A program made the position numbers and the translations under genes. Below are positions 2 through 23,113 of a stretch of DNA of 24,867 nucleotides, in pieces. The notes beneath the pieces are model-generated. The model searched no databases, had not been told where the DNA came from, and saw only the letters and a program-made list of their open reading frames with translations. The stretch is from a virus: positions 1 through 24,867 of IMG/VR virus record IMGVR_UViG_3300008267_000527. One strand, 5' to 3'. Position 1 is the stretch's first letter. Each line of letters begins with the position of its first letter.

Positions 2-3000
2 GGTGGAGGAACACCAGCTCCATCTAATTCGTATGTACAGTATAATGAAAATGGAGCATTTGGAGGTAGTGAGTATTTTAAGTACAATTACGAATCACAA
101 AGTTTACAGATAGGGCTAAACTCACCAACCGCCAGCTTTCTTTCTTTTTTATTTGGCTTAAACTCCCGTACGACCCCCGGTTTCTCAGGCCTGATTCAAA
201 ATATGAGCTATACTACTGGAGCAATTGCAATGGGCCACTATGTCACATCATCAAACCATTTTTCATTTGGAACTGGTTATCGTAGTGTATTGTATGGTGC
301 ATACTCAAATGCTAAAGGTTGGTCAGCAAGTATATACGACTTTGCAGCTGCATCTCATGCTGAAGGATATGCACCAACAGTATACGGAAGCTTTTCTCAT
401 GCTGAAGGCAACACTACAGCCATTGGTGGTAGAATTGGATTACCTCTGGTTTCTGCTACCCGCGGGACCGGTAGTATGAAAACAGGATATGGGGATATTA
501 CTAGTTATTTTACAAGTGGCAATCGATTGTTAGTTTACATAGCGACTAGCTCTTACAACGAAAACGATCGACTTGTAGCGTACAATTTACCAGTTGATAC
601 GAGCGTTACTATAACGAGCACTTCCTTTAATGGAAGTAGTACGTTAGTTATGGTGGATAATCCGGATTATTTATTTGGCACAGATGTAGATGGTGGTCAA
701 GGTCTCTATATCGTAGATATTGGACCTTATGAATGGAACAGCAGTGACACACCAGCAGCCATATTACCTGGCACTATTCCAAATATTGCATACAGTGAGA
801 ACCTACCCTTAGGACCAACATCTGCTCATGCAGAAGGACAACAGACAATAGCTTATGGAAACGCTTCTCACGTTGAAGGATATGTTACTACAACATTTGG
901 ACCACACTCTCATGCTGAGGGCTACGACACAACAGCATTTGGCCAATCTAGTCACGCAGAAGGATCAAGTGCCTACTCAATTGGTAACTATTCGCACGCT
1001 GAAGGTGCAGCAACAGAAGCGTGGGGAGCTAGTAGTCATACAGAGGGTGAGGAATCTCGTACTACAACATCTGCAATAGCAGCTCATGCCGAAGGATATT
1101 CAACAATAGCTGTAGGCCAGTATTCACACGCTGAAGGACAACAGACAAGAGCTTACGGAAATGCTTCTCACGTTGAAGGTAGTACTACATACACCGGAAC
1201 AATTAAAGCTTGGTACGCTGAGTCGGTAGTGGCTGGTGTACTCACTCTGAGTGCATCCTATAATGATGCATCTAACTTTTTTGCAATAGATGGTATTTTA
1301 TACCTTAATGATCAACCATATGATAATTTTTATTCAAGAGATACGTTTAAAATTAGTCAATCCTACTTCGACTCCCCAAACACAATAGTAGAGTTATACG
1401 ACACCCAAATAAACACCTCTACAGCACTTGTTGGCGATCTTTTGTACGGAATACTAAACTGGAACGGAGACCAAACAATACCAGGAACATACTCACATGC
1501 TGAAGGAATTAATAATGTAGCTATAGGAGAATATGCACATGCCGAAGGTCAACTTGCACAAGCCGGTGGGTTTGGATCACATGCCGAAGGGGCACAATCT
1601 TTAGCAGCTGGTAATTACTCGCATGCAGAAGGAACAAATGCGCAAGCCTTAGGAGATTATTCACATGCGGAAGGATACGATACAAGAGCACGGTCAGATT
1701 ATTCACATGCGGAAGGATTCTTAACAGAGGCAGGTATTACTAATGATGGTATTTCTGACGGAGCACACGCTGAAGGAGGTAACACAAAGGCTTTAGGCTC
1801 TCTTTCACATGCAGAAGGCACCTACACCACAGCACTAGGAAATGGATCACACGCAGAAGGTACATACACAACATCATCAGGAACGCACTCACATGCAGAA
1901 GGTAGTAGTTCCATAGCTTTTGGAACAGCATCACATGCAGGAGGTCTACACACAATAGCATCAGCAAGTTTTGCTACAACAATAGGCCAATACAACCTAC
2001 ACAACAACATCACTGCTCTATTCACAATCGGCGATGGAGCAAGTGATACAAATAGACACGACTTACTAAATGCTGGAATCGGATACATGCAGGTATCGGG
2101 ATCGGCTACCGTATCTAGCAGCTTAGAAGTAATTGGACTTTCAAGAGTTACTGGATCGCTAATAATTTCAAACAGCTTTGAGTTAGTTGGATCAGGACGT
2201 GTTACCGGTTCTTATACCATATCGAGTAGCTTAAACGTAATTGGAGTAAGCAACGTAACCGGTTCAAATAACATAACTGGGTCTTGGAATTTAGTAGGTA
2301 GTGGACAGACAACGGGATCGTTTAATATAACAGGCAGCAGTAGTTTAATAGGAGTTGGAATAGTGACCGGTTCACTACTAATAACCGGATCGTTAGTTGC
2401 AAATCGTGCAAACTTAACTGGATCACTAACCGGTTCATTTTTTGGCACAGGCTCTGGAGACTTCGATGGACAGTTTATTGGAAGAGTAACTGGGTCAATG
2501 ACCGGTTCATTCTTCGGCACAGGGTCAGGCAATTTTGATGGAAGGTTTATAGGACAGCTTACAGGATCTGTTACCGGTTCAACTACCGGTTCATTCCTTG
2601 GTACCGGTTCAGGAGACTTTGACGGCAGATTCATAGGATCTGTTACAGGGTCTACTACCGGTTCCTTTAGAGGTACTGGGTCTGGATTTTTTGATGGACT
2701 ATTTACCGGTTCAAATGCAAATGGTGTTTCATTCTATGGAACATCAAGTTGGGCGGTAACAGCATCATATGTGACTGGATCCATCTTTGATTCATCAAAC
2801 CCAGCCCTATCGGCATCATACGCTCTTAGTTCATCCTACAGTGTAACAAGTAGTTATGCAGAGAGCGCATCCTATGCCCTATCAAGCTCATATGCAGTAT
2901 CATCATCATACGCACTAACTAGCTCATACGCTGAGTCAGCTTCCTATGCTCTAAGTTCCTCGTATAGTGTAACAAGTAGTTATGCAGAAAGTGCCTCTTA

Positions 3001-3745
3001 TGCCTTAAGCTCATCTTATAGCGTTACAAGCAGTTACGCAGAATCAAGTTCATATGCACTGAGTTCCTCCTATAGTGTAACAAGCTCTTATAGCGTAAGT
3101 TCTAGTTACGCAGTGTCCTCTTCCTACGCACTTAGTGCATCATATGCCTTTAGTAGCTCTTATGCCACAACAGCATCATACATAGATCCTTTATTTATAT
3201 CTGCATCAGCAGCCTTCTACGGCTTTGGTTCAGGAGGCAGTCCTAGTAGTGGAGATATAACGGATGTTAACGAGGGACTAGGAATATCAGTTACCAATCC
3301 TAGTGGACCAGCTCCATCTGTAGCATTAAACACAGGGTCGGCTCACTTTATAGGTGGTGTATCTAGTTTAACAGGAAGTCTTCTTACGACCACTTCTTTT
3401 AATAGTTGGACAGGCTCAAACTCAAGTTTGTTTGCAGGAACTGCTTCTTACGTGACTGGTTCGATTTTCAGTGAAAGTAACGTTGCTCTAAGTGCATCAT
3501 ATGCTCTAAGTTCTTCTTATACTGTAACCAGTAGCTATGCCGAAAGTGCATCCTACGCATTGTCAAGTTCTTATAGCGTAACAAGCTCTTACGCACAATC
3601 AAGTTCATATGCTCTAAGTTCTTCTTATAGCGTAACTAGTAGCTATGCCGAGAGTTCATCGTACGCTCTAAGTTCTAGCTACGCAGTATCATCCTCCTAC
3701 GCATTTAGCGCATCATATGCACTAAGTGCGCATCATATGCACTAA
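2..3745 (+). CDS. Giant repetitive tail fibre, 5'-partial, prematurely terminated
   Basis: The frame is open from base 2, so the true start lies before the window; the ATG at 203 is internal. The residues before it (VQYNENGAFGG) match a motif common in phage fibres. Domains in order: about 22 SHAEG-type repeats (353-1945) resembling the YadA/Hep_Hag beta-roll head of trimeric adhesins, broken by two non-repeat inserts; a TGS-rich block (about 2090-2711); SYALSS-type hexapeptide repeats (2809-3180 and 3484-3745); and between them a GDITDVNEGLGIS module of the kind found in fibre shafts. The role is inferred as a long trimeric fibre for host recognition. The frame stops at TAA 3743-3745, inside the second copy of a 20-bp tandem duplication; without that duplication it would run on to 4485. 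Fibre nature is secure; the receptor is unknown. Confidence 0.85.
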   Translation, partial: GGGTPAPSNSYVQYNENGAFGGSEYFKYNYESQSLQIGLNSPTASFLSFLFGLNSRTTPGFSGLIQNMSYTTGAIAMGHYVTSSNHFSFGTGYRSVLYGAYSNAKGWSASIYDFAAASHAEGYAPTVYGSFSHAEGNTTAIGGRIGLPLVSATRGTGSMKTGYGDITSYFTSGNRLLVYIATSSYNENDRLVAYNLPVDTSVTITSTSFNGSSTLVMVDNPDYLFGTDVDGGQGLYIVDIGPYEWNSSDTPAAILPGTIPNIAYSENLPLGPTSAHAEGQQTIAYGNASHVEGYVTTTFGPHSHAEGYDTTAFGQSSHAEGSSAYSIGNYSHAEGAATEAWGASSHTEGEESRTTTSAIAAHAEGYSTIAVGQYSHAEGQQTRAYGNASHVEGSTTYTGTIKAWYAESVVAGVLTLSASYNDASNFFAIDGILYLNDQPYDNFYSRDTFKISQSYFDSPNTIVELYDTQINTSTALVGDLLYGILNWNGDQTIPGTYSHAEGINNVAIGEYAHAEGQLAQAGGFGSHAEGAQSLAAGNYSHAEGTNAQALGDYSHAEGYDTRARSDYSHAEGFLTEAGITNDGISDGAHAEGGNTKALGSLSHAEGTYTTALGNGSHAEGTYTTSSGTHSHAEGSSSIAFGTASHAGGLHTIASASFATTIGQYNLHNNITALFTIGDGASDTNRHDLLNAGIGYMQVSGSATVSSSLEVIGLSRVTGSLIISNSFELVGSGRVTGSYTISSSLNVIGVSNVTGSNNITGSWNLVGSGQTTGSFNITGSSSLIGVGIVTGSLLITGSLVANRANLTGSLTGSFFGTGSGDFDGQFIGRVTGSMTGSFFGTGSGNFDGRFIGQLTGSVTGSTTGSFLGTGSGDFDGRFIGSVTGSTTGSFRGTGSGFFDGLFTGSNANGVSFYGTSSWAVTASYVTGSIFDSSNPALSASYALSSSYSVTSSYAESASYALSSSYAVSSSYALTSSYAESASYALSSSYSVTSSYAESASYALSSSYSVTSSYAESSSYALSSSYSVTSSYSVSSSYAVSSSYALSASYAFSSSYATTASYIDPLFISASAAFYGFGSGGSPSSGDITDVNEGLGISVTNPSGPAPSVALNTGSAHFIGGVSSLTGSLLTTTSFNSWTGSNSSLFAGTASYVTGSIFSESNVALSASYALSSSYTVTSSYAESASYALSSSYSVTSSYAQSSSYALSSSYSVTSSYAESSSYALSSSYAVSSSYAFSASYALSAHHMH
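353..1945 (+). repeat. SHAEG beta-roll repeats in the tail fibre
   Basis: About 22 degenerate copies of a roughly 15-residue unit centred on S-H-A-E-G, with variants SHVEG, SHTEG, AHAEG and a final SHAGG. The following residues usually fit x-x-T-x-A-x-G, the pattern of YadA-like left-handed beta-roll heads. Two stretches without the motif (about 430-810 and 1180-1490) interrupt the array. Positions 833-879 and 1133-1179 are near-identical at DNA level, exactly 300 bp apart. Confidence 0.85.
2429..2711 (+). repeat. TGSFxGTGSGxFDG repeats in the tail fibre
   Basis: Four copies begin at 2429, 2501, 2585 and 2657 (spacings 72, 84 and 72 nt). Each encodes TGSF-x-GTGSG-x-FDG followed by FIG-x-x-TGS; the last copy is shortened. 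They precede the hexapeptide block and probably form part of the fibre shaft. The DNA copies differ at many third positions, so this is an old protein-level repeat. Confidence 0.8.
2809..3180 (+). repeat. SYALSS-type hexapeptide repeats, first block
   Basis: An 18-nt (six-residue) unit S-Y-[AS]-[LVE]-[ST]-[SA] is repeated about 20 times. Similar blocks recur at 3484-3745 and, in another frame, at 3748-3866. Codon choice varies between units, with changing serine and alanine codons, so the DNA repeat is imperfect although the peptide repeat is strict. Probably a rigid trimeric shaft. Confidence 0.85.
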
Positions 3746-3747
3746 GT
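3708..3747 (+). repeat. Exact 20-bp tandem duplication that breaks the fibre frame
   Basis: The 20-mer gcgcatcatatgcactaagt occurs at 3708-3727 and is repeated without change at 3728-3747. Twenty is not a multiple of three, so the second copy moves the reading frame and brings in TAA at 3743-3745. Reading one copy only gives an uninterrupted SASYALSSSYAES junction into the downstream frame. This could be a slippage mutation, a phase-variable site or an assembly error. Confidence 0.9.
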
Positions 3748-4485
3748 AGCTCATATGCTGAGTCAGCTTCATACGCTTTAAGCTCATCCTATAGCGTATC
3801 TAGTAGCTATGCTCAGTCAAGCTCGTATGCACTAAGCTCCTCCTACTCTGTAACATCGTCATTTGCGGTAAACGTTCTAATAACAGCATCTGTATCCTTA
3901 AATGATATAACTTTTTACAAAGGAGATGGCACGCAGTTTGTAATTACCGTAGATACTGGATCAGGTGGAGGAGGTGGCGGTGGTGACATAACTGCCGTGA
4001 CTGCAGGAAATGGTTTGAGTGGAGGAGGAACAGTGGGAGCTGTTACGCTAAACCTAGACACAGCATCAACTCATTTCATAGATGGTGTATCTAGTTTGAC
4101 AGCAAGCCTTCTTACAACTACTTCCTTCAATAGTTGGACTGGTTCAAATATAAGTCAATTTTCAGGTACAGCATCCTATGTAACTGGGTCTATTTTTAGC
4201 GGCACTAACTCTGCTCTTAGCGCATCGTTTGCAACAACAGCATCGTATGCTTTAACATATCCTTATACCTCAACCTCATCACTTCTTGGGGATGATGTAA
4301 ATAACATATATTATGTTAACCACGGATTCAATACCAGAAACCTTCACATAACAGTTTATGAAAATTTTGATGACTACGAAACTGTGTATCCCGACGTTAA
4401 ACGTCCACACCCTGACACAGCTAGCATAACATTTGCTAACCCAGTGCTATCAACAAAGCAATACATGGTATATATTTCAATATAA
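3748..4485 (+). CDS. C-terminal part of the tail fibre, out of frame with the rest
   Basis: After the 20-bp duplication the frame is open to TAA 4483-4485 and encodes more SYALSS hexapeptides, a GDITAVTAGNGLSGGG motif typical of phage fibres, a module repeating the one upstream (HFIDGVSSLTASLLTTTSFN, then SFNSWTGS) and a non-repetitive end with NHGFNTRNLHI and a terminal VYISI. There is no ATG; the only alternative start is GTG at 3997, inside the GDITAV motif and thus unlikely. It is best read as the true C-terminus of the fibre, made only if the frame is restored. The unique last 70 or so residues may be the tip, or an attachment point for the glycine-rich proteins downstream. Confidence 0.7.
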   Translation, partial: SSYAESASYALSSSYSVSSSYAQSSSYALSSSYSVTSSFAVNVLITASVSLNDITFYKGDGTQFVITVDTGSGGGGGGGDITAVTAGNGLSGGGTVGAVTLNLDTASTHFIDGVSSLTASLLTTTSFNSWTGSNISQFSGTASYVTGSIFSGTNSALSASFATTASYALTYPYTSTSSLLGDDVNNIYYVNHGFNTRNLHITVYENFDDYETVYPDVKRPHPDTASITFANPVLSTKQYMVYISI

Positions 4486-4640
4486 TGCCTAAGTTTTTAT
4501 CCGAAATACAACTAGTAGCAACAGGCTCGATAGAGACTCCTGATCCAGGATTTGTTACACTATATGTAAACACAGATGGTAACCTATACGCTAAAACCTC
4601 TAATGGGAATCAAGTAAAGCTAAACATCAATAATGCATGA
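4485..4640 (+). CDS. 51-residue protein equal to the N-terminal domain of the next genes
   Basis: The start ATG (4485-4487) overlaps the fibre stop by one base (TAATG), and the TGA (4638-4640) overlaps the next start as ATGA, so it looks translationally coupled on both sides. The product starts MPKFLSEIQLVATGS and carries PDPGFVTLYVNTDGNLYAK. The pattern P-x-P-G-x-x-x-L-Y, then L-Y-x-K, is shared with the N-termini of both glycine-rich proteins that follow. It therefore resembles a stand-alone attachment or capping domain of the distal tail. No signal or membrane segment. Function unknown. Confidence 0.7.
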   Translation: MPKFLSEIQLVATGSIETPDPGFVTLYVNTDGNLYAKTSNGNQVKLNINNA

Positions 4641-5742: not shown

Positions 5743-6831
5743 ATGGCAAAGTTACTAAACACAGCATCACTAGTCACACAATCAGCACCCCCTACACCAA
5801 GTAGTGGGTATGGTACTTTGTACGCAAGTGGCAGCAGCCTCTTCTTCAAAAACAGCTCAGGTACAAATTTCAATCTATCGGTAATTGGTTCTTCTAGCTA
5901 CACACTATACACCACATCTGGAACTTACACCTACAACACAGGATCAGGCATACAGTACATAAGAGTAGTTTGTGTCGGTGGAGGTGGAGGTGGCGGCAGT
6001 GGCCGTACTATTTCAGCAGCTGCTGGAAACCGTAATGGTGGTGGTGGTGGAGCTGGTGGTAATGCTAATATAGGCTTTTTCTACTCTTCTTCTTTAACAA
6101 CAGGAAGCTATACGGTCACAGTAGGAGGATTTGGAGCTGGCGGTGCTAGACAGACTGGTACAAATAATAATGGAAATGCTGGACTAGCAGGATCCAATAG
6201 CACATTCGCATCTGGATCAGTAGTATTAGTTCGAGGAGTAGGAGGTCCTGGTGGTGGTGCAGGAAGTGCAACCAATACAGCAAACGGAGTTTTAGGAGGA
6301 GCTAATACGCTACAAACAACAGCAACAGTACCAAATCCATATCCACCATTTTACTTTTGTGGTATAGATGGAGGAAATACTGGGGCAGGAGCTGCAGGAG
6401 CCGCTCAAGGTAATGCTTTTGGGGGTGCTCGATGGTTAGGAGGTGGCGGTGGTGGTGGAGCAATCAACTCTGCCAACACCACAATACCTGGCGGCTCAGG
6501 ATCTGCTATATACAACTATAATACCCTAATACAATCAGGCTCTCCTGGAGCTGGTGGAAATCCTGGACAAAACGGAGCTCCTGTAATTGATATAGCTACT
6601 TTGCTATTTTTTAGCGGAAGTAGTTTAAATACAGGAATACAAATAGGTACCGGAGGACATGGTGGTTCGGGAGGAATACACTCTCCAGCATCATCTGGAG
6701 GGAATGGAGGCTCTGGCAGTAGAGCAGCAGGTGGTGGAGGTGGTGGAGGTTGTAATGGTGCAGTAGGTTTATCTAGTGGAGCCGGTGGACCAGGCGGAGA
6801 TGGTTTTGTAATAATTTTCGAATACTATTAA
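5743..6831 (+). CDS. Glycine-rich distal tail protein / putative adhesin (copy 2)
   Basis: 362 residues, a paralogue of the preceding gene: same length, same N-terminal domain (PPTPSSGYGTLYASGSSLFF), same strand lead-in (YIRVVCVGGGGGGGSG), glycine-rich body and an almost identical C-terminal strand (FVIIFEYY). The central glycine-rich part differs strongly between the copies, as expected if each tip recognises a different target or if one copy is diverging. The start lies after an A/T-rich leader (AATACTTATTTAAAG) with no Shine-Dalgarno sequence. Assignment as a fibre-tip protein is by context and composition. Confidence 0.65.
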   Translation: MAKLLNTASLVTQSAPPTPSSGYGTLYASGSSLFFKNSSGTNFNLSVIGSSSYTLYTTSGTYTYNTGSGIQYIRVVCVGGGGGGGSGRTISAAAGNRNGGGGGAGGNANIGFFYSSSLTTGSYTVTVGGFGAGGARQTGTNNNGNAGLAGSNSTFASGSVVLVRGVGGPGGGAGSATNTANGVLGGANTLQTTATVPNPYPPFYFCGIDGGNTGAGAAGAAQGNAFGGARWLGGGGGGGAINSANTTIPGGSGSAIYNYNTLIQSGSPGAGGNPGQNGAPVIDIATLLFFSGSSLNTGIQIGTGGHGGSGGIHSPASSGGNGGSGSRAAGGGGGGGCNGAVGLSSGAGGPGGDGFVIIFEYY

Positions 6832-6842
6832 AAAATACTTTT

Positions 6843-7046
6843 ATGGGAAGATGGGCAGTAATAAAATCAAACTATGTTATTGATGTTGTAGTATGGGATG
6901 GAGTAACACCTTGGCAATATCCTGGGGAACACGACTCCCTTGTGGAAGAAAATACAGAGAATGTAGGTTATGGAGATTGGTACGAATCCTCAGAGGGAGT
7001 ATTCTACCGTCCACTATCTACACCACCAGATTTTCCTCCTGCATAA
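6843..7046 (+). CDS. Small tail-region protein, WAVI family
   Basis: 67 residues starting MGRWAVIKSNYVIDVVVWDG. Short proteins with a WAVI...V(I/V)VWDG opening and a proline-rich end are familiar next to fibre genes in phages and often form a terminal domain of fibre or fibre-assembly proteins; this is a recollection, not a search. Rich in Trp and Tyr, acidic, no membrane segment. It follows copy 2 of the glycine-rich protein by 11 bases and ends the distal-tail group. A frame shifted by two (6893-7084) is a shadow. Confidence 0.6.
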   Translation: MGRWAVIKSNYVIDVVVWDGVTPWQYPGEHDSLVEENTENVGYGDWYESSEGVFYRPLSTPPDFPPA

Positions 7047-7075
7047 TTCATTTTTTGGACAAAATAAAAACTACT

Positions 7076-7083
7076 TATAAATA
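7076..7083 (+). promoter_or_regulatory. Candidate T4-type late promoter element (TATAAATA)
   Basis: An exact match to the T4 late promoter core TATAAATA, in the 45-base gap before the coiled-coil gene. It lies only 8 bases before the ATG at 7092, so a transcript starting at the usual distance would have nearly no leader. It may instead be an A/T-rich translation signal. Confidence 0.45.
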
Positions 7084-7091
7084 AAGTTACT

Positions 7092-7364
7092 ATGGAACAA
7101 CAACAGTTTACACAAGAAGAATTAAACGAGATCAAGCAAATCCAATCAAACTACCAAACAGTAGGATTGAATTTAGTACAACTTAAATTGGCAATCTTGA
7201 ACGCAAAGAACCAATTAGAGTTGCTAGAAACAGAAGAGAAAGTTCTCTCAGAAAGAATCTTAGATCTCAACAAACAAGAAAAGCAACTAGCAAAAGCGCT
7301 AGAGCAAAAATACGGTAAAGGTGAAATTGATTTAGATAGTGGGGTATTTACTCCGACTGCTTAA
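7092..7364 (+). CDS. Small coiled-coil protein of unknown function
   Basis: 90 residues, starting MEQQQFTQEELNEIKQIQ. Heptad-like hydrophobic spacing runs over about residues 15-75 (LVQLKLAILNAKNQLELLE, then VLSERILDLNKQEKQL), predicting one long helix or coiled coil, with a short acidic tail. No signal peptide or enzyme motif. It sits alone between the distal-tail genes and the sheath, with its own A/T-rich upstream element. It could be a chaperone or small virion protein; I do not recognise the family. Confidence 0.6.
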   Translation: MEQQQFTQEELNEIKQIQSNYQTVGLNLVQLKLAILNAKNQLELLETEEKVLSERILDLNKQEKQLAKALEQKYGKGEIDLDSGVFTPTA

Positions 7365-7397
7365 GTCACCAATACAAGGTTTCGGGTTACGTAATAC

Positions 7398-7405
7398 TAT
7401 TTATA
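7398..7405 (+). promoter_or_regulatory. Candidate A/T-rich element (TATTTATA) before the sheath gene
   Basis: TATTTATA followed by TAAAAC, ending 25 bases before the sheath ATG. The same core followed by a [TA][AG]AAA tract lies before the gp26-like gene and before the gene at 11619. It is the reverse complement of the T4 late core; whether it works as a promoter on this strand is not shown. Confidence 0.35.
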
Positions 7406-7430
7406 TAAAACAAATTAATTTCTCAACACA

Positions 7431-9899
7431 ATGGCCGAAAAAATAGTTAGTCCCGGTGTCTTTACGAACGAAAGAGATCTATCGTTCCTACCGACTGGTA
7501 TTGCATCTATTGGTGCAGTGGTAATGGGTCCAACCACAAAAGGACCTGCTTTCGTTCCTACTGTGATTACCAACTTTGAAGATTTCAAAGCTAAATTTGG
7601 TGATCTGAACGAATCAACCTACATTCCTTACACAGTAAAAAGCTACTTGCGTAATGCTAGCAACGTAATCGTTGTTCGCGTTGTACAAGAGGGTGGTTAC
7701 TCAACAACTCCAATCCACGTTATTTGGACCGGTCAGTCTAGTGTTGGCAGCCCGACTAGATTGGTAGGTACAATTCACCCAAGCTTAAAGAGCAGTACTT
7801 CCTTAGCTGGTGGTGGTGCTAACACTGCTGACTTTTCAAAGACAGTACTTTCGCCAGCAACAGTATCGGTAACCGGTTCTTTGGCTTTTGTTCTTAGTGG
7901 TTCTGCAGACACTGGTGGATCAGGAAAACTTAGCGGATCAGCAAATCCAAGTTCACCAATCTCCTTTGAAAAGGTATTTGGTACAACAGTTTACTCTGAT
8001 AAGACTGGTTTCTTGTACACTTGGAATAAGGACTTTTTGGGTACTGTAACAGGATTGAGTGGTTCAATATCTTTTGTATCCACAAGCACTGCCTTAGACC
8101 TCTCAGGCACAACTTACGGTGCAGCTCAAAAAGGCGCAACTCCTTACATTACAACCCAGAAGCTCGACGGTCAAGTACCACAAAAACTTTTCCGCTTCTT
8201 AGCAAATGGTGAAGGTCAGGATACCAATACTGCCTATAAGATTAGTGTTATTAACACTTTGTTGCCTGGTGATGACCCTGCAAGTGCCTACGGTACCTTT
8301 ACAGTATTAGTTCGTGCATACGACGACACTGATCAAAGACCTAATGTATTAGAAACTTTCGTAGGTTGTAACCTCGATCCAGATTCAGTAAACTACATTG
8401 CTAGAAAAATTGGTGACCGATATGTTCAGATTAACTCCGATAACACTATCACCTACGCAGGAAACTACGACAATAGAAGTAAGTATGTTTATGTTGAGGT
8501 AACTGACGACGTTGCTAACAAAGGTATTCCGCCAACCTACAGACCATATGGATTTGAGCCACTCATCCAAACTGTTAGTGGATCAGCCTCAATGCCTTTC
8601 TATAATCTGATTGAAAATGCAACTTACACCAACCAACTTACAGGTTCAAGTGCCCAAACCATAATCAACGGATTCTACAACGCAAAAGCCTACTACGGCT
8701 GGAACTTTGCTGCATATGATAATGCAAACTATCTGAAGCCAGTTCCTTCACTCGCAGTAGCTCCAACAGACGCAAGAGGCTTAAGCGCTTACTTTAACCT
8801 TGACTACTGCTTCATCCACCCAAGTGCATCTAAAAAAGACAGCAGATCAACAATGACTGCAGGGTCTTCTATATCTGGATCTACTCTGAAAGGTGTGGAT
8901 ATTTCTAACGTAGCTAAGTTCAACGTACCATTCCAAGGTGGATTTGAGGGTATGGATATCGCTAAGAAGAAGTTAGTTGGCTCAAGCATGACTACTACCA
9001 ACGTAAGTGGTTTCGACTGTAGCACTTCAACTGCTAGCGGATCGCAAGCTTACTTTAAAGCTCTTGGAATCATTGGTAACGGTGAAGAGTTTGATATCAA
9101 CTTGATTGTGACTCCTGGTCCAAATGCTGCACAACACCCAGCTGTAATTCAAAAAGCAATTGAAGTTGCTGAAGACAGAGGTGATACATTTGTAATTGTA
9201 GATCCAGTTAAGCAAGGTTCACAGATTGGCGATGCAGTTGCTGCAATCACTGATGCAAGCTTGGATAGTAACTACGCAGCTGTATACTGGCCTTGGGTTA
9301 AGATCATCGACATCACTCGTAACAAACCGGTATGGGTACCACCAAGTGCAGTACTTCCAGGTGTGTTAGCTTACAACGATAGCGTATCATTTGAGTGGTT
9401 TGCTCCTGCAGGTCTTAACAGAGGTGGAATTTCTGAAGCTGTTGACGTTGAATTGAAGCTTACCTTCTCACAAAGAGACTTGTTGTATGAAAACAGAATC
9501 AACCCACTTGCAACATTCCCTAACCAAGGTGTATGTGTATGGGGTCAAAAGACTCTGCAATCTAAGCCAAGCGCTCTTGACAGAATCAATGTACGTCGTC
9601 TGATGATTGCATTGAAGAAGTATATTGCAAGTGCTACTCGCTACTTGGTATTCGAAAACAATACTACAGAAACTCGTCAGAGATTCTTGAACATTGTTAA
9701 CCCTTACTTGGAGAGAGTTAAGTCACGTCAAGGATTATACGCCTTCCGTGTAGTAATGGACGAAACAAACAATACCCCAGATGTAATTGATAGAAACCAA
9801 ATGTACGGTCAGATCTTCTTGCAACCAGCAAAATCTTCTGAATTCATCATTTTGGATTTCAACATTTTACCAACTGGTGCATCGTTTGAAAACGCATAA
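7431..9899 (+). CDS. Contractile tail sheath protein (gp18-like)
   Basis: 822 residues. The start (IVSPGVFTNERDLSFLP) and the following GPTTKGPAFVPTVITNFEDF are the usual opening of myovirus sheath proteins. The C-terminal third has the conserved sheath fold signals: FEWFAPAGLNRGGI, RDLLYENRINPLATFPNQGV, VWGQKTL, INVRRLMIALKK and the final strand FIILDFNILPTGASF. The subunits form the contractile tube around the tail tube. T4 gp18 is about 660 residues, so this protein is longer, with extra Ser/Gly-rich sequence at about residues 110-230 that is probably a surface domain. The tube gene follows, as in T4. Confidence 0.95.
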   Translation: MAEKIVSPGVFTNERDLSFLPTGIASIGAVVMGPTTKGPAFVPTVITNFEDFKAKFGDLNESTYIPYTVKSYLRNASNVIVVRVVQEGGYSTTPIHVIWTGQSSVGSPTRLVGTIHPSLKSSTSLAGGGANTADFSKTVLSPATVSVTGSLAFVLSGSADTGGSGKLSGSANPSSPISFEKVFGTTVYSDKTGFLYTWNKDFLGTVTGLSGSISFVSTSTALDLSGTTYGAAQKGATPYITTQKLDGQVPQKLFRFLANGEGQDTNTAYKISVINTLLPGDDPASAYGTFTVLVRAYDDTDQRPNVLETFVGCNLDPDSVNYIARKIGDRYVQINSDNTITYAGNYDNRSKYVYVEVTDDVANKGIPPTYRPYGFEPLIQTVSGSASMPFYNLIENATYTNQLTGSSAQTIINGFYNAKAYYGWNFAAYDNANYLKPVPSLAVAPTDARGLSAYFNLDYCFIHPSASKKDSRSTMTAGSSISGSTLKGVDISNVAKFNVPFQGGFEGMDIAKKKLVGSSMTTTNVSGFDCSTSTASGSQAYFKALGIIGNGEEFDINLIVTPGPNAAQHPAVIQKAIEVAEDRGDTFVIVDPVKQGSQIGDAVAAITDASLDSNYAAVYWPWVKIIDITRNKPVWVPPSAVLPGVLAYNDSVSFEWFAPAGLNRGGISEAVDVELKLTFSQRDLLYENRINPLATFPNQGVCVWGQKTLQSKPSALDRINVRRLMIALKKYIASATRYLVFENNTTETRQRFLNIVNPYLERVKSRQGLYAFRVVMDETNNTPDVIDRNQMYGQIFLQPAKSSEFIILDFNILPTGASFENA

Positions 9900-9928
9900 T
9901 TGTAATACTTATAATAAAATAACGCACA

Positions 9929-10417
9929 ATGGCAAATTTAATAGAAAACGATAAAATGTTCTACACGCCCTTCGAACCGAAGGTGCAGAATCGTTTCATC
10001 ATGCAACTTGATGGTGTACCATCCTTCATCATGAAGAAGGTATCACGTCCTCAGATTGACTGTGGTGAAGTTGTATTGGACCACATCAACTTGGTTCGTA
10101 AGCTGAAAGGAAAGTGTAAGTGGGGTGATATCACCATGACACTGTACGATCCGATTGTACCATCTGGTGCCCAAGCTGTAATGGAGTGGGTGAGAACAGC
10201 ACACGAATCTGTAACTGGTCGTGATGGCTACGCAGACTTCTACAAAAAAGATTTTGATATCTTTGTGTTGGGTCCTGTTGGTGATAAGATTGAAAACTGG
10301 AAAGTAAAGGGAGCTTATATCAAGTCTGCTCAGTTTGGCGACTTAGATTGGGCTACTGAAACACAGGTTGAAATCCAATTGACCTTAGCATTAGACTATT
10401 GTGTATTGGAGTACTAA
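9929..10417 (+). CDS. Tail tube protein (gp19-like)
   Basis: 162 residues, the size of T4 gp19 (about 163). The opening FYTPFEPKVQNRFIMQLDG, then GVPSFIMKKVSRP, the central KGKCKWGDITMTLYDPI and the C-terminal VEIQLTLALDYCVLEY fit the tube-protein family, whose hexamer rings stack into the inner tail tube. It directly follows the sheath gene, as expected. The leader is A/T-rich (AATACTTATAATAAAATAA) with no Shine-Dalgarno sequence. A strong hairpin terminator follows, so sheath and tube probably end one transcript. Confidence 0.93.
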   Translation: MANLIENDKMFYTPFEPKVQNRFIMQLDGVPSFIMKKVSRPQIDCGEVVLDHINLVRKLKGKCKWGDITMTLYDPIVPSGAQAVMEWVRTAHESVTGRDGYADFYKKDFDIFVLGPVGDKIENWKVKGAYIKSAQFGDLDWATETQVEIQLTLALDYCVLEY

Positions 10418-10442
10418 TACTCACACACACAAAATAATACTT

Positions 10443-10477
10443 GTAAAGCCAGCAGAAATGTTGGCTTTACTTTTTAT
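10443..10477 (+). terminator. Rho-independent terminator after the tube gene
   Basis: An 11-bp stem (10443-10453 with 10460-10470; one G-U pair), a six-base loop and then TTTTTAT. It follows the tail tube stop by 26 bases. Confidence 0.85.
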
Positions 10478-10485
10478 ATGGAGTA

Positions 10486-10493
10486 TATTTATA
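10486..10493 (+). promoter_or_regulatory. Candidate A/T-rich element (TATTTATA) before the gp26-like gene
   Basis: TATTTATA followed by TGAAAG, just downstream of the terminator and ending 24 bases before the ATG at 10518, almost the same spacing as before the sheath gene. The placement after a terminator and before a new gene is what a promoter would show. Confidence 0.4.
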
Positions 10494-10517
10494 TGAAAGT
10501 TATTAAAGTTATTATCT

Positions 10518-11381
10518 ATGAGCGAAACAAAGCTGCCTAAAGCAGGCGAAAGACCGGTTATGTCGGATGAAGATTTGAAGTCCCAATTTGCCAAAGACTA
10601 TGTGACAAACATAGAAGTTGATAAGTACGACGGACCTACTGAAATAATCGAACTACCATCAAAGGGATACTTCTATCCAGATGGACATCCACTAGCAGGT
10701 GGAACAATCGAAATCAAGTACATGACAGCTAAAGAGGAAGACATTCTCAGCTCAGCTACTTTAATTAAGCAAGGTGTTGTTATTGACAAGCTTCTGCAAT
10801 CTCTTATTGTAACAAAAGTTAAGTATGACGATTTGTTGCTGATGGATAAGAATGCAATCTTTATTGCAGCTCGCGTGTTAGCGTATGGTAATGCTTACCA
10901 AGTAGAGATTACATGCCCAGCCTGTGAAAGCAAGCAAACAGACTATGTTGATCTTTCTTCTTTTGAAGAAAAGACACTAGACTGGGCTCAGTTTACAAAA
11001 GGCAAGACTACCTTTGACTTTACACTTCCAATGACAAAAAAGACTTTGACTTTGAAGTTTTTAACTCATGGAGATGATAAAACAATCAATGAAAATTTAA
11101 AGTCTTCTAAGAAGATGTCAAAGCTTACAGGAGTGGATCCTGAATTGACAACAAGACTAAGACAGATGATTGTTGCAATTGATGGAAACACAGACCCAGC
11201 CGAGATCTTTAAGTTTTCTCAGAATATGCTTTCACGCGATAGTCTAGCTCTTAGAGAGTACTTGAAAAAAATAACCCCAGAAGTTGACACTACATTTTCA
11301 TATGAGTGTGAAAACTGCGGACATACTAACCATAAGATGGCAGTGCCCATTACGGTAAGCTTTTTTTGGCCTGGGGTCTGA
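10518..11381 (+). CDS. Baseplate hub assembly protein / tail chaperone (gp26-like)
   Basis: 287 residues. ELPSKGYFYPDGHPL and the following GTIEIKYMTAKEEDIL are hallmark sequences of the T4 gp26-type baseplate family. Two CxxC pairs (Cys133/136 in CPAC, Cys264/267 in CENC) probably bind one zinc ion. The C-terminus VPITVSFFWPGV runs into TGA. Immediately beyond, in the +1 frame, is a well-formed gp51-like segment with no start of its own (see 11377). The most likely reading is that a fraction of ribosomes shift near GGGG 11373-11376 or the T7 run 11361-11367 to give a fusion of about 348 residues. Flanked by terminators on both sides, so probably its own transcription unit. Confidence 0.8.
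   Translation: MSETKLPKAGERPVMSDEDLKSQFAKDYVTNIEVDKYDGPTEIIELPSKGYFYPDGHPLAGGTIEIKYMTAKEEDILSSATLIKQGVVIDKLLQSLIVTKVKYDDLLLMDKNAIFIAARVLAYGNAYQVEITCPACESKQTDYVDLSSFEEKTLDWAQFTKGKTTFDFTLPMTKKTLTLKFLTHGDDKTINENLKSSKKMSKLTGVDPELTTRLRQMIVAIDGNTDPAEIFKFSQNMLSRDSLALREYLKKITPEVDTTFSYECENCGHTNHKMAVPITVSFFWPGV
11359..11381 (+). other. Probable programmed frameshift window
   Basis: Both frames are open only between TAA 11356-11358 (frame of the gp51-like part) and TGA 11379-11381 (frame of gp26). Inside lie seven T (11361-11367) and GGGG (11373-11376). A +1 slip of the glycine tRNA on GGG-G joins FFWPG to SDYRPLLYDQIF. A slip on the T run would give FFGLG instead. A -2 slip reaches the same frame. Confidence 0.6.
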
Positions 11382-21823: not shown

Positions 21824-23113
21824 GTGATAGTAGACTCATTCCAACAATACCAAAGCTTTATTAAAGACATAGAAGGTAGGCATATCATATGCCATGCCAT
21901 TGTTCTATATCCGCAAAAGCACCTAGTAGACAATACAATTATAGGTTGGTATGTTCGTGTCCTGGATGGCGAAGAGTTCACAGTTCTCATTGAACACCCA
22001 GAAGCAGTGTATAAGGTGGATTGTTATGAGTTCTTTCATAGAGCGGAGAGATGCTACGTAGTTGACTACGACATTCTAACCTACGCTGGGTACAAGCTAC
22101 TCCCAAACATGGAAGATGGAGTGATCAACAGCTATCTCAGCTACGGAACCATTCCAGAGCAAGAATACAATCCTCTTCTTAACTTTTATAGAAAGAGAGT
22201 AGGACAGGCCTGTTCCAACTTCTTAATAGACTTAACCAAACTACAACAATACTATCGTGATATTGTTGATAGACTCCCCATAGATAGAGAACTAATGAAT
22301 CCATTCTACAATACGGTTAAGGAAGTGTATCATACCATCGAGAAGAGTGGTATTGCTGTAGACGAGCAGCTCTTTAGAAATGCTTTTCCAAATAGCGGAT
22401 ATCTTAAAGATGGAAAAGCGTATACAAAGTACAACCTCTACACCTCAACAGGAAGACCAAGTAATAGGTTTGCTGGAGTAAACTATGCAGCCCTAAATAA
22501 AGAGGATGGTACTCGAGAATGCTTCATGTCACGTTATCCTAATGGAAAGTTGATTGAAATAGACTTTACATCCTATCACCCACGAATCTTAGCATCGTTA
22601 ACAAAGTATAGCATCTCTGATCAAGAAAATATATACGAACACTTAGCGAAGCAGTACTTTGGGGATAACCCAACTCAAGAGCAAGTGGCGCAATCAAAGG
22701 AGATGACGTTTAGACAGCTTTATGGAGGAATCAATAGACAGTACCTTCACATTGACTACTTCGCTAGAATACAGATGCTTACTGATACACTGTGGCAAAT
22801 ATATTCAAAACAAGGCTTCATCAACAGCTTAATATCTAAACGCAAGATATCAGGTATCGAAGATGCGACACCAACTAAAGTACTAAACTACTTTATACAG
22901 CTGCAGGAAACAGAACAAAACGTACAACTGCTGTCACAAATATTTGCTAAGCTACCTACCGATATACTGCCTATTTTATACACTTACGATAGTGTCTTGT
23001 TTGACGTTCCATGTGAAAAAGAACAAGCACTTTATGGCATATTACAGGCAACAATCCCTAGTAAATTTCCCTTTAAGATCAAAACTGGAGATAATTATAG
23101 ACATATAGACTAG
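21824..23113 (+). CDS. Short family A DNA polymerase
   Basis: 429 residues from a GTG start; the ATG two bases earlier meets a stop at once. Recognisable polymerase parts: YTSTGRPSNRFAGVNY (about 206-221), motif A IEIDFTSYHPRILA with Asp247, motif B KEMTFRQLYGG with Lys292, Phe296 and Tyr300 at the standard 4-residue spacing, and motif C LYTYDSVLFDV with Asp389. The usual motif B arginine four residues before Lys292 is Val, and the classic HDE is YDS. Residues 1-158 show no intact 3'-5' exonuclease motifs. T4-like phages normally use a family B enzyme; RM378 has a family A polymerase with separate exonuclease, from memory. It would be the replicative polymerase if no other is coded. Confidence 0.75.
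   Translation: MIVDSFQQYQSFIKDIEGRHIICHAIVLYPQKHLVDNTIIGWYVRVLDGEEFTVLIEHPEAVYKVDCYEFFHRAERCYVVDYDILTYAGYKLLPNMEDGVINSYLSYGTIPEQEYNPLLNFYRKRVGQACSNFLIDLTKLQQYYRDIVDRLPIDRELMNPFYNTVKEVYHTIEKSGIAVDEQLFRNAFPNSGYLKDGKAYTKYNLYTSTGRPSNRFAGVNYAALNKEDGTRECFMSRYPNGKLIEIDFTSYHPRILASLTKYSISDQENIYEHLAKQYFGDNPTQEQVAQSKEMTFRQLYGGINRQYLHIDYFARIQMLTDTLWQIYSKQGFINSLISKRKISGIEDATPTKVLNYFIQLQETEQNVQLLSQIFAKLPTDILPILYTYDSVLFDVPCEKEQALYGILQATIPSKFPFKIKTGDNYRHID

Follow-up and report, generated by a model that had tools for sequence, protein, structure and literature searches.

When a giant phage fibre gene is cut short by a small exact repeat, is the repeat a switch, a mutation or a mistake? The stretch of DNA that raises this question (the window) is a linear virus record of 24,867 bases. 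It carries a contractile-tail phage module that includes a sheath (PF04984 + PF17482), a T4 gp19-like tube, a T4-type baseplate protein and a UvsX-like recombinase. Its first gene is the giant fibre, whose 5' end is open and lies outside the window. An earlier note had reported an exact 20-bp tandem duplication in this gene and suggested that it acts, through reversible slippage, as an on/off switch for the fibre tip. The duplication is certainly there. Judging from the sequence and from related viruses, however, we consider it probable (roughly 0.55) that the duplication is a contig assembly error in a repeat-rich stretch. The frame break is best read as an isolated one, and the phage fibre gene that it interrupts is in other respects an ordinary one of trimeric type.

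The duplication and the two reading frames

The repeated unit is GCGCATCATATGCACTAAGT. Its first copy occupies 3708..3727 and its second 3728..3747, both on the + strand; they are adjacent and identical at 20/20 positions. The run of identity is exactly 20 bases, the same as the period, and does not extend by even one base on either side, which leaves zero microhomology at the junction. Since 20 mod 3 = 2, a change in the number of copies shifts the reading frame, as at a contingency locus, and the second copy does so here.

The upstream part of the fibre (2..3745, + strand) passes from SHAEG/YadA-head-like repeats through TGS-rich repeats into SSYAxS hexapeptide tracts, and terminates with ...SASYALSAHHMH and a TAA at 3743-3745. 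The shaft gives a PF05658 YadA_head match (E=7.6e-9) that passes the curated cut-off, and we regard the protein as a SHAEG/YadA-head-like trimeric phage fibre; going by its family, it would trimerize and bind a receptor with its tip. The downstream part (3709..4485, + strand) lies in the -1 frame (positions = 1 mod 3) and is open throughout; its first ATG, GTG or TTG is GTG 3997, and it continues for 245 codons beyond 3747. The two frames are offset by exactly the 20 bp, in agreement with the arithmetic of the earlier note and with its estimate that about 245 residues are lost.

Coincidence does not account for this arrangement. When codons were shuffled 2000 times at synonymous positions, exact matches at lags not divisible by three reached 10 bases at most, and none of the shuffles produced a tandem duplication of at least 10 bp; hence the 20-bp duplication in the window is not due to chance. 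The downstream frame has 0 stops in its 245 codons, while 23 and 21 are met in the remaining two frames. Its pN/pS is 0.34 in comparison with the relative L011 and 0.45 with the relative L078, with synonymous sites near saturation. A frame that is both intact and constrained implies that the break, if real at all, is very recent.

The fibre is followed by an ORF of 51 aa (4485..4640, + strand) whose ATG overlaps the fibre stop (TAATG). The 17-bp junction, TATAATGCCTAAGTTTT, is identical in the window, L011 and L078, and in both relatives it joins the fibre stop to the ATG of an ORF of about 50 aa; this common overlap suggests that the fibre cassette may be translationally coupled. The 51-aa ORF of the window (4485-4640) also overlaps the start of the next gene. 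In L011 and L078 the corresponding ORF is followed by two genes similar in size to the glycine-rich pair of the window. At the other end of the window, a DNA-polymerase-like ORF (21824-23113, 429 aa), which may be a split or a short polymerase, matches only the C-terminal part of the polymerase profile, and its relatives end inside the ORF.

Intact relatives and the lost C-terminal module

The two relatives, L011 (3300010354_000394) and L078 (3300042691_010023), are syntenic with the window on the downstream side. The fibre of L011 is cut at its 5' end by the contig edge, and that of L078 has 2,917 aa. In both, a single frame joins the shaft to the part that is separated in the window: it runs through the hexapeptide tracts to the C-terminal module of the window, ends with QYVVYISV or QYVVYISI, and has the same short ORF on the fibre stop. 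The two frames of the window are thus parts of one gene, as had been proposed, and the comparison with close relatives that had been suggested as a check finds unbroken fibres.

The same holds more widely. We surveyed distinct fibre ORFs that have at least five hexapeptides and end inside the contig; 35 of the 36 are intact and the single broken one is that of the window. The tip lies in an uninterrupted frame in 25/25 of the best tip-matching loci. Across the family, then, only the window represents an OFF state. Those other genes of the window for which the fetched loci contain relatives are matched over their full or nearly full length, except where the relative is cut short or can be aligned only in part. 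Gapped and exact DNA patterns at the junction and at the gene end had no match among the viral contigs scanned, not even in the record of the window itself, and these scans turned up no relative of the virus at strain level. A pattern scan of genome contigs returned 104 stretches, none of which was confirmed as a relative. Sheath genes vary in number among the related contigs: L011 has two in tandem (5829-8270 and 8294-10708), 75% and 70% identical to the single sheath gene of the window, and L012 has a second, partial sheath match upstream.

The truncation removes a conserved C-terminal module of about 80 aa (4246..4482, + strand) with a predicted six-strand beta fold, supported by an alignment, a structural model and the ends of PHROG families. 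The alignment of 18 sequences has 25 invariant columns, and at least 17 other loci have fibre genes that end with this module. The end of the fibre had been called unique, which it is not: the module is common to the fibre genes of related phages. Its predicted structure is a small domain of six beta strands (pLDDT 81); when the tip model was compared with PDB folds, no match reached an E of 0.001 or better. Among profiles, the module comes closest to the ends of head-decoration and structural families of phages (phrog_2647, phrog_8309), and there is a weak PDB sequence match to a capsid decoration protein (E 0.011). Receptor binding may be a function of this module. In cultured phages the best tip matches, in mycobacteriophages, are about 39% identical with 27% query coverage, and no close fibre relative is found among them. 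The pattern NHGFNTRNLHITVYE...ETVYPDIRR...FANP..QYIVYIS ends many different fibre genes (4246-4482 in the window; L091-L115), and in L096 the module ends two neighbouring genes of one phage.

What could have produced the second copy

In a switch, the 20-bp unit would expand and contract at high frequency and so toggle the fibre tip. We find this very unlikely. It is general knowledge that an exact two-copy tandem duplication can collapse at a raised frequency, and variation by tandem duplication is known in fibre genes, though in frame (EfV12-phi1, PMC6365445). Against this stands the local sequence. All 65 of the 65 pairs of repeated words (at least 10 bases, no more than 300 bp apart) in 2700-3727 are spaced at distances divisible by three, as are 126 of the 130 pairs of 8-base words, so that slippage upstream of the junction keeps the frame. 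The duplication is off the 18-bp register of the tract around it. There is a single extra copy rather than a multi-copy array able to slip in both directions, the junction has no microhomology, and outside the two copies the window contains no 12-base piece of the 20-mer. The one-copy allele therefore has no 20-mer partner to slip on, and frequent forward switching is not to be expected. This sequence has no easy two-way switch built into it; at best, the duplication could collapse. The earlier note had held that repeat-rich surroundings make slippage or misassembly easy. Misassembly has become the leading account, but a tract with an 18-bp period and repeats at multiples of three gives by itself no reason to expect a slip of 20 bp.

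Related phages tell against a switch as well. Of the exact tandem duplications of at least 13 bp in 1.87 Mb of phage DNA, 28/30 are multiples of three, a count that includes the same virus sampled twice and so overstates the number of independent events; the two exceptions are the 20-mer of the window and a 14-mer in L136. Within five groups of near-identical viruses, sampled from different metagenomes, the fibre region is free of indels; one of these fibres is only partly covered (L007 ends inside the tract) and some have few hexapeptides. With 1/36 fibres broken, relatives intact and local repeats in frame, reversible phase variation is unsupported. It is, if anything, still harder to credit a genuine ON/OFF polymorphism in the population that arises from one short out-of-frame duplication, removes the C-terminal module and uncouples the next ORF. 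A difference of another kind is seen between L096 (8998) and L097 (7914-7974), contigs from two metagenomes that are otherwise identical apart from an in-frame 60-bp deletion in a baseplate gene.

Two further suggestions would change the meaning of the duplication. If the truncation were bypassed, by ribosomes shifting to the -1 frame where the two open frames overlap (3709..3745, + strand, 37 nt) or by an internal restart at GTG 3997, a full-length or tip protein would still be made. The overlap has the direction that a -1 shift requires and there is an AGGAGG at 3969-3974, but no slippery heptamer of the form X XXY YYZ occurs in the overlap, the AGGAGG precedes the GTG by 22 nt and is too distant for a usual ribosome-binding site, and recoding is unnecessary in relatives. 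We reject programmed frameshifting on the absence of the heptamer, and regard bypass in general as the most improbable of the suggestions made here. Alternatively, the pair of units may have come from a 2-bp insertion into two adjacent near-identical 18-bp hexapeptide units, with an equal consequence for the frame. An 18-bp register over both units would encode two consecutive ASYALS hexapeptides. This would need about 17/18 identity, however, while neighbouring 18-bp units in other parts of the tract are at most 15/18 identical, and the rest of the tract has ASYALS followed by SSYxxS, never ASYALS twice running. Such an origin is very unlikely.

A more serious possibility, though a tentative one, is that a real, non-switching 20-bp duplication truncated the fibre recently, either in a defective variant or in a virus that can do without its fibre on the local host. 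The contig is otherwise clean, and a downstream frame that is still intact is what one would expect of a recent event. Laboratory lambda, which has a frameshift in stf relative to Ur-lambda, lacks its side tail fibres (PMC3509688). Frame breaks do occur in such contigs, as the sheath gene of L069 shows, though this one is possibly an error too; they are rare, with L069 the one clear case among 89 sheath loci. On the other side, all 35 of the 35 other hexapeptide fibres are intact, so truncation is not the usual state, and cutting short a conserved fibre in the majority allele should carry a cost. The fibre stop also overlaps the start of the next ORF, and early termination may reduce the product of that gene too. 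The L069 break itself (1694-1755, in the tail-sheath gene of a related contig) may likewise be an error.

This brings us back to an assembly error. By one possible route, two contig ends sharing 20 bases would have been joined without merging of the overlap, and the true gene would be a single uninterrupted fibre closed by the common C-terminal module. Zero microhomology and a position off the 18-bp register fit an unmerged overlap better than slippage. An error is also consistent with the exactness of the copies, the unbroken genes of relatives, the intact frame downstream and the location among repeats, and the length of the repeat is near the word size of assemblers: k=21 is a common assembly word and 20 is k-1, a coincidence that is suggestive only and weak by itself. 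Some points count against an error. The window has no N bases and no further 20-bp duplication, and none is found in 163 other loci, so nothing points to a systematic artefact. Iterative short-read assemblers normally merge overlaps of k-1. A genuine 20-bp duplication would look identical at the level of sequence, where it fits equally well. We infer assembly as the probable cause with these points in mind.

Known systems and the meaning of the break

Several known systems resemble the window in part. The stf allele of laboratory lambda demonstrates that a fibre truncation can persist (PMC3509688): a frameshift truncates the side tail fibre gene and lambda stays viable. That allele was established by sequencing and phenotype, whereas the lesion in the window is a 20-bp duplication known from the sequence of one assembled contig. 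Tandem duplications within long tail fibre genes are known from Enterococcus phage EfV12-phi1, where they are 1.8 kb long, in frame and tied to host interaction (PMC6365445), and from T4, whose duplications of adhesin domains are also tied to host interaction according to the citation of Tetart et al. 1996 in the same paper. The former keep the frame and the latter expand a domain, but the duplication in the window is solitary and breaks the frame.

Bacterial simple-sequence contingency loci have many copies and undergo slipped-strand mutation in both directions. The window is like them in that a change in the copy number of a short tandem unit, not a multiple of three, would toggle the frame; it differs in having two copies, no microhomology and no recurrence in relatives. 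A class of error documented in long-read assemblies duplicates overlapping sequence falsely where contigs meet, as tandem copies with a gap between them (PMC8081667). The likeness is an exact tandem copy of overlapping sequence at a contig join. Those false homotype duplications come from vertebrate long-read assemblies, have units of read length and usually contain a gap, while that of the window is 20 bp and gapless.

A duplication that was both real and polymorphic would amount to a phage fibre switch that works by slippage, a mechanism for which the literature that we searched offered no direct precedent. As matters stand, the locus is a warning that a frame break in a low-complexity phage gene, seen in a single contig, should not be taken for regulation. 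What was measured is a rule of another kind: the repeats of this SSYAxS hexapeptide fibre are spaced at multiples of three, and tandem duplications in related fibres are multiples of three. Natural slippage would accordingly alter the length of the shaft without breaking the frame.
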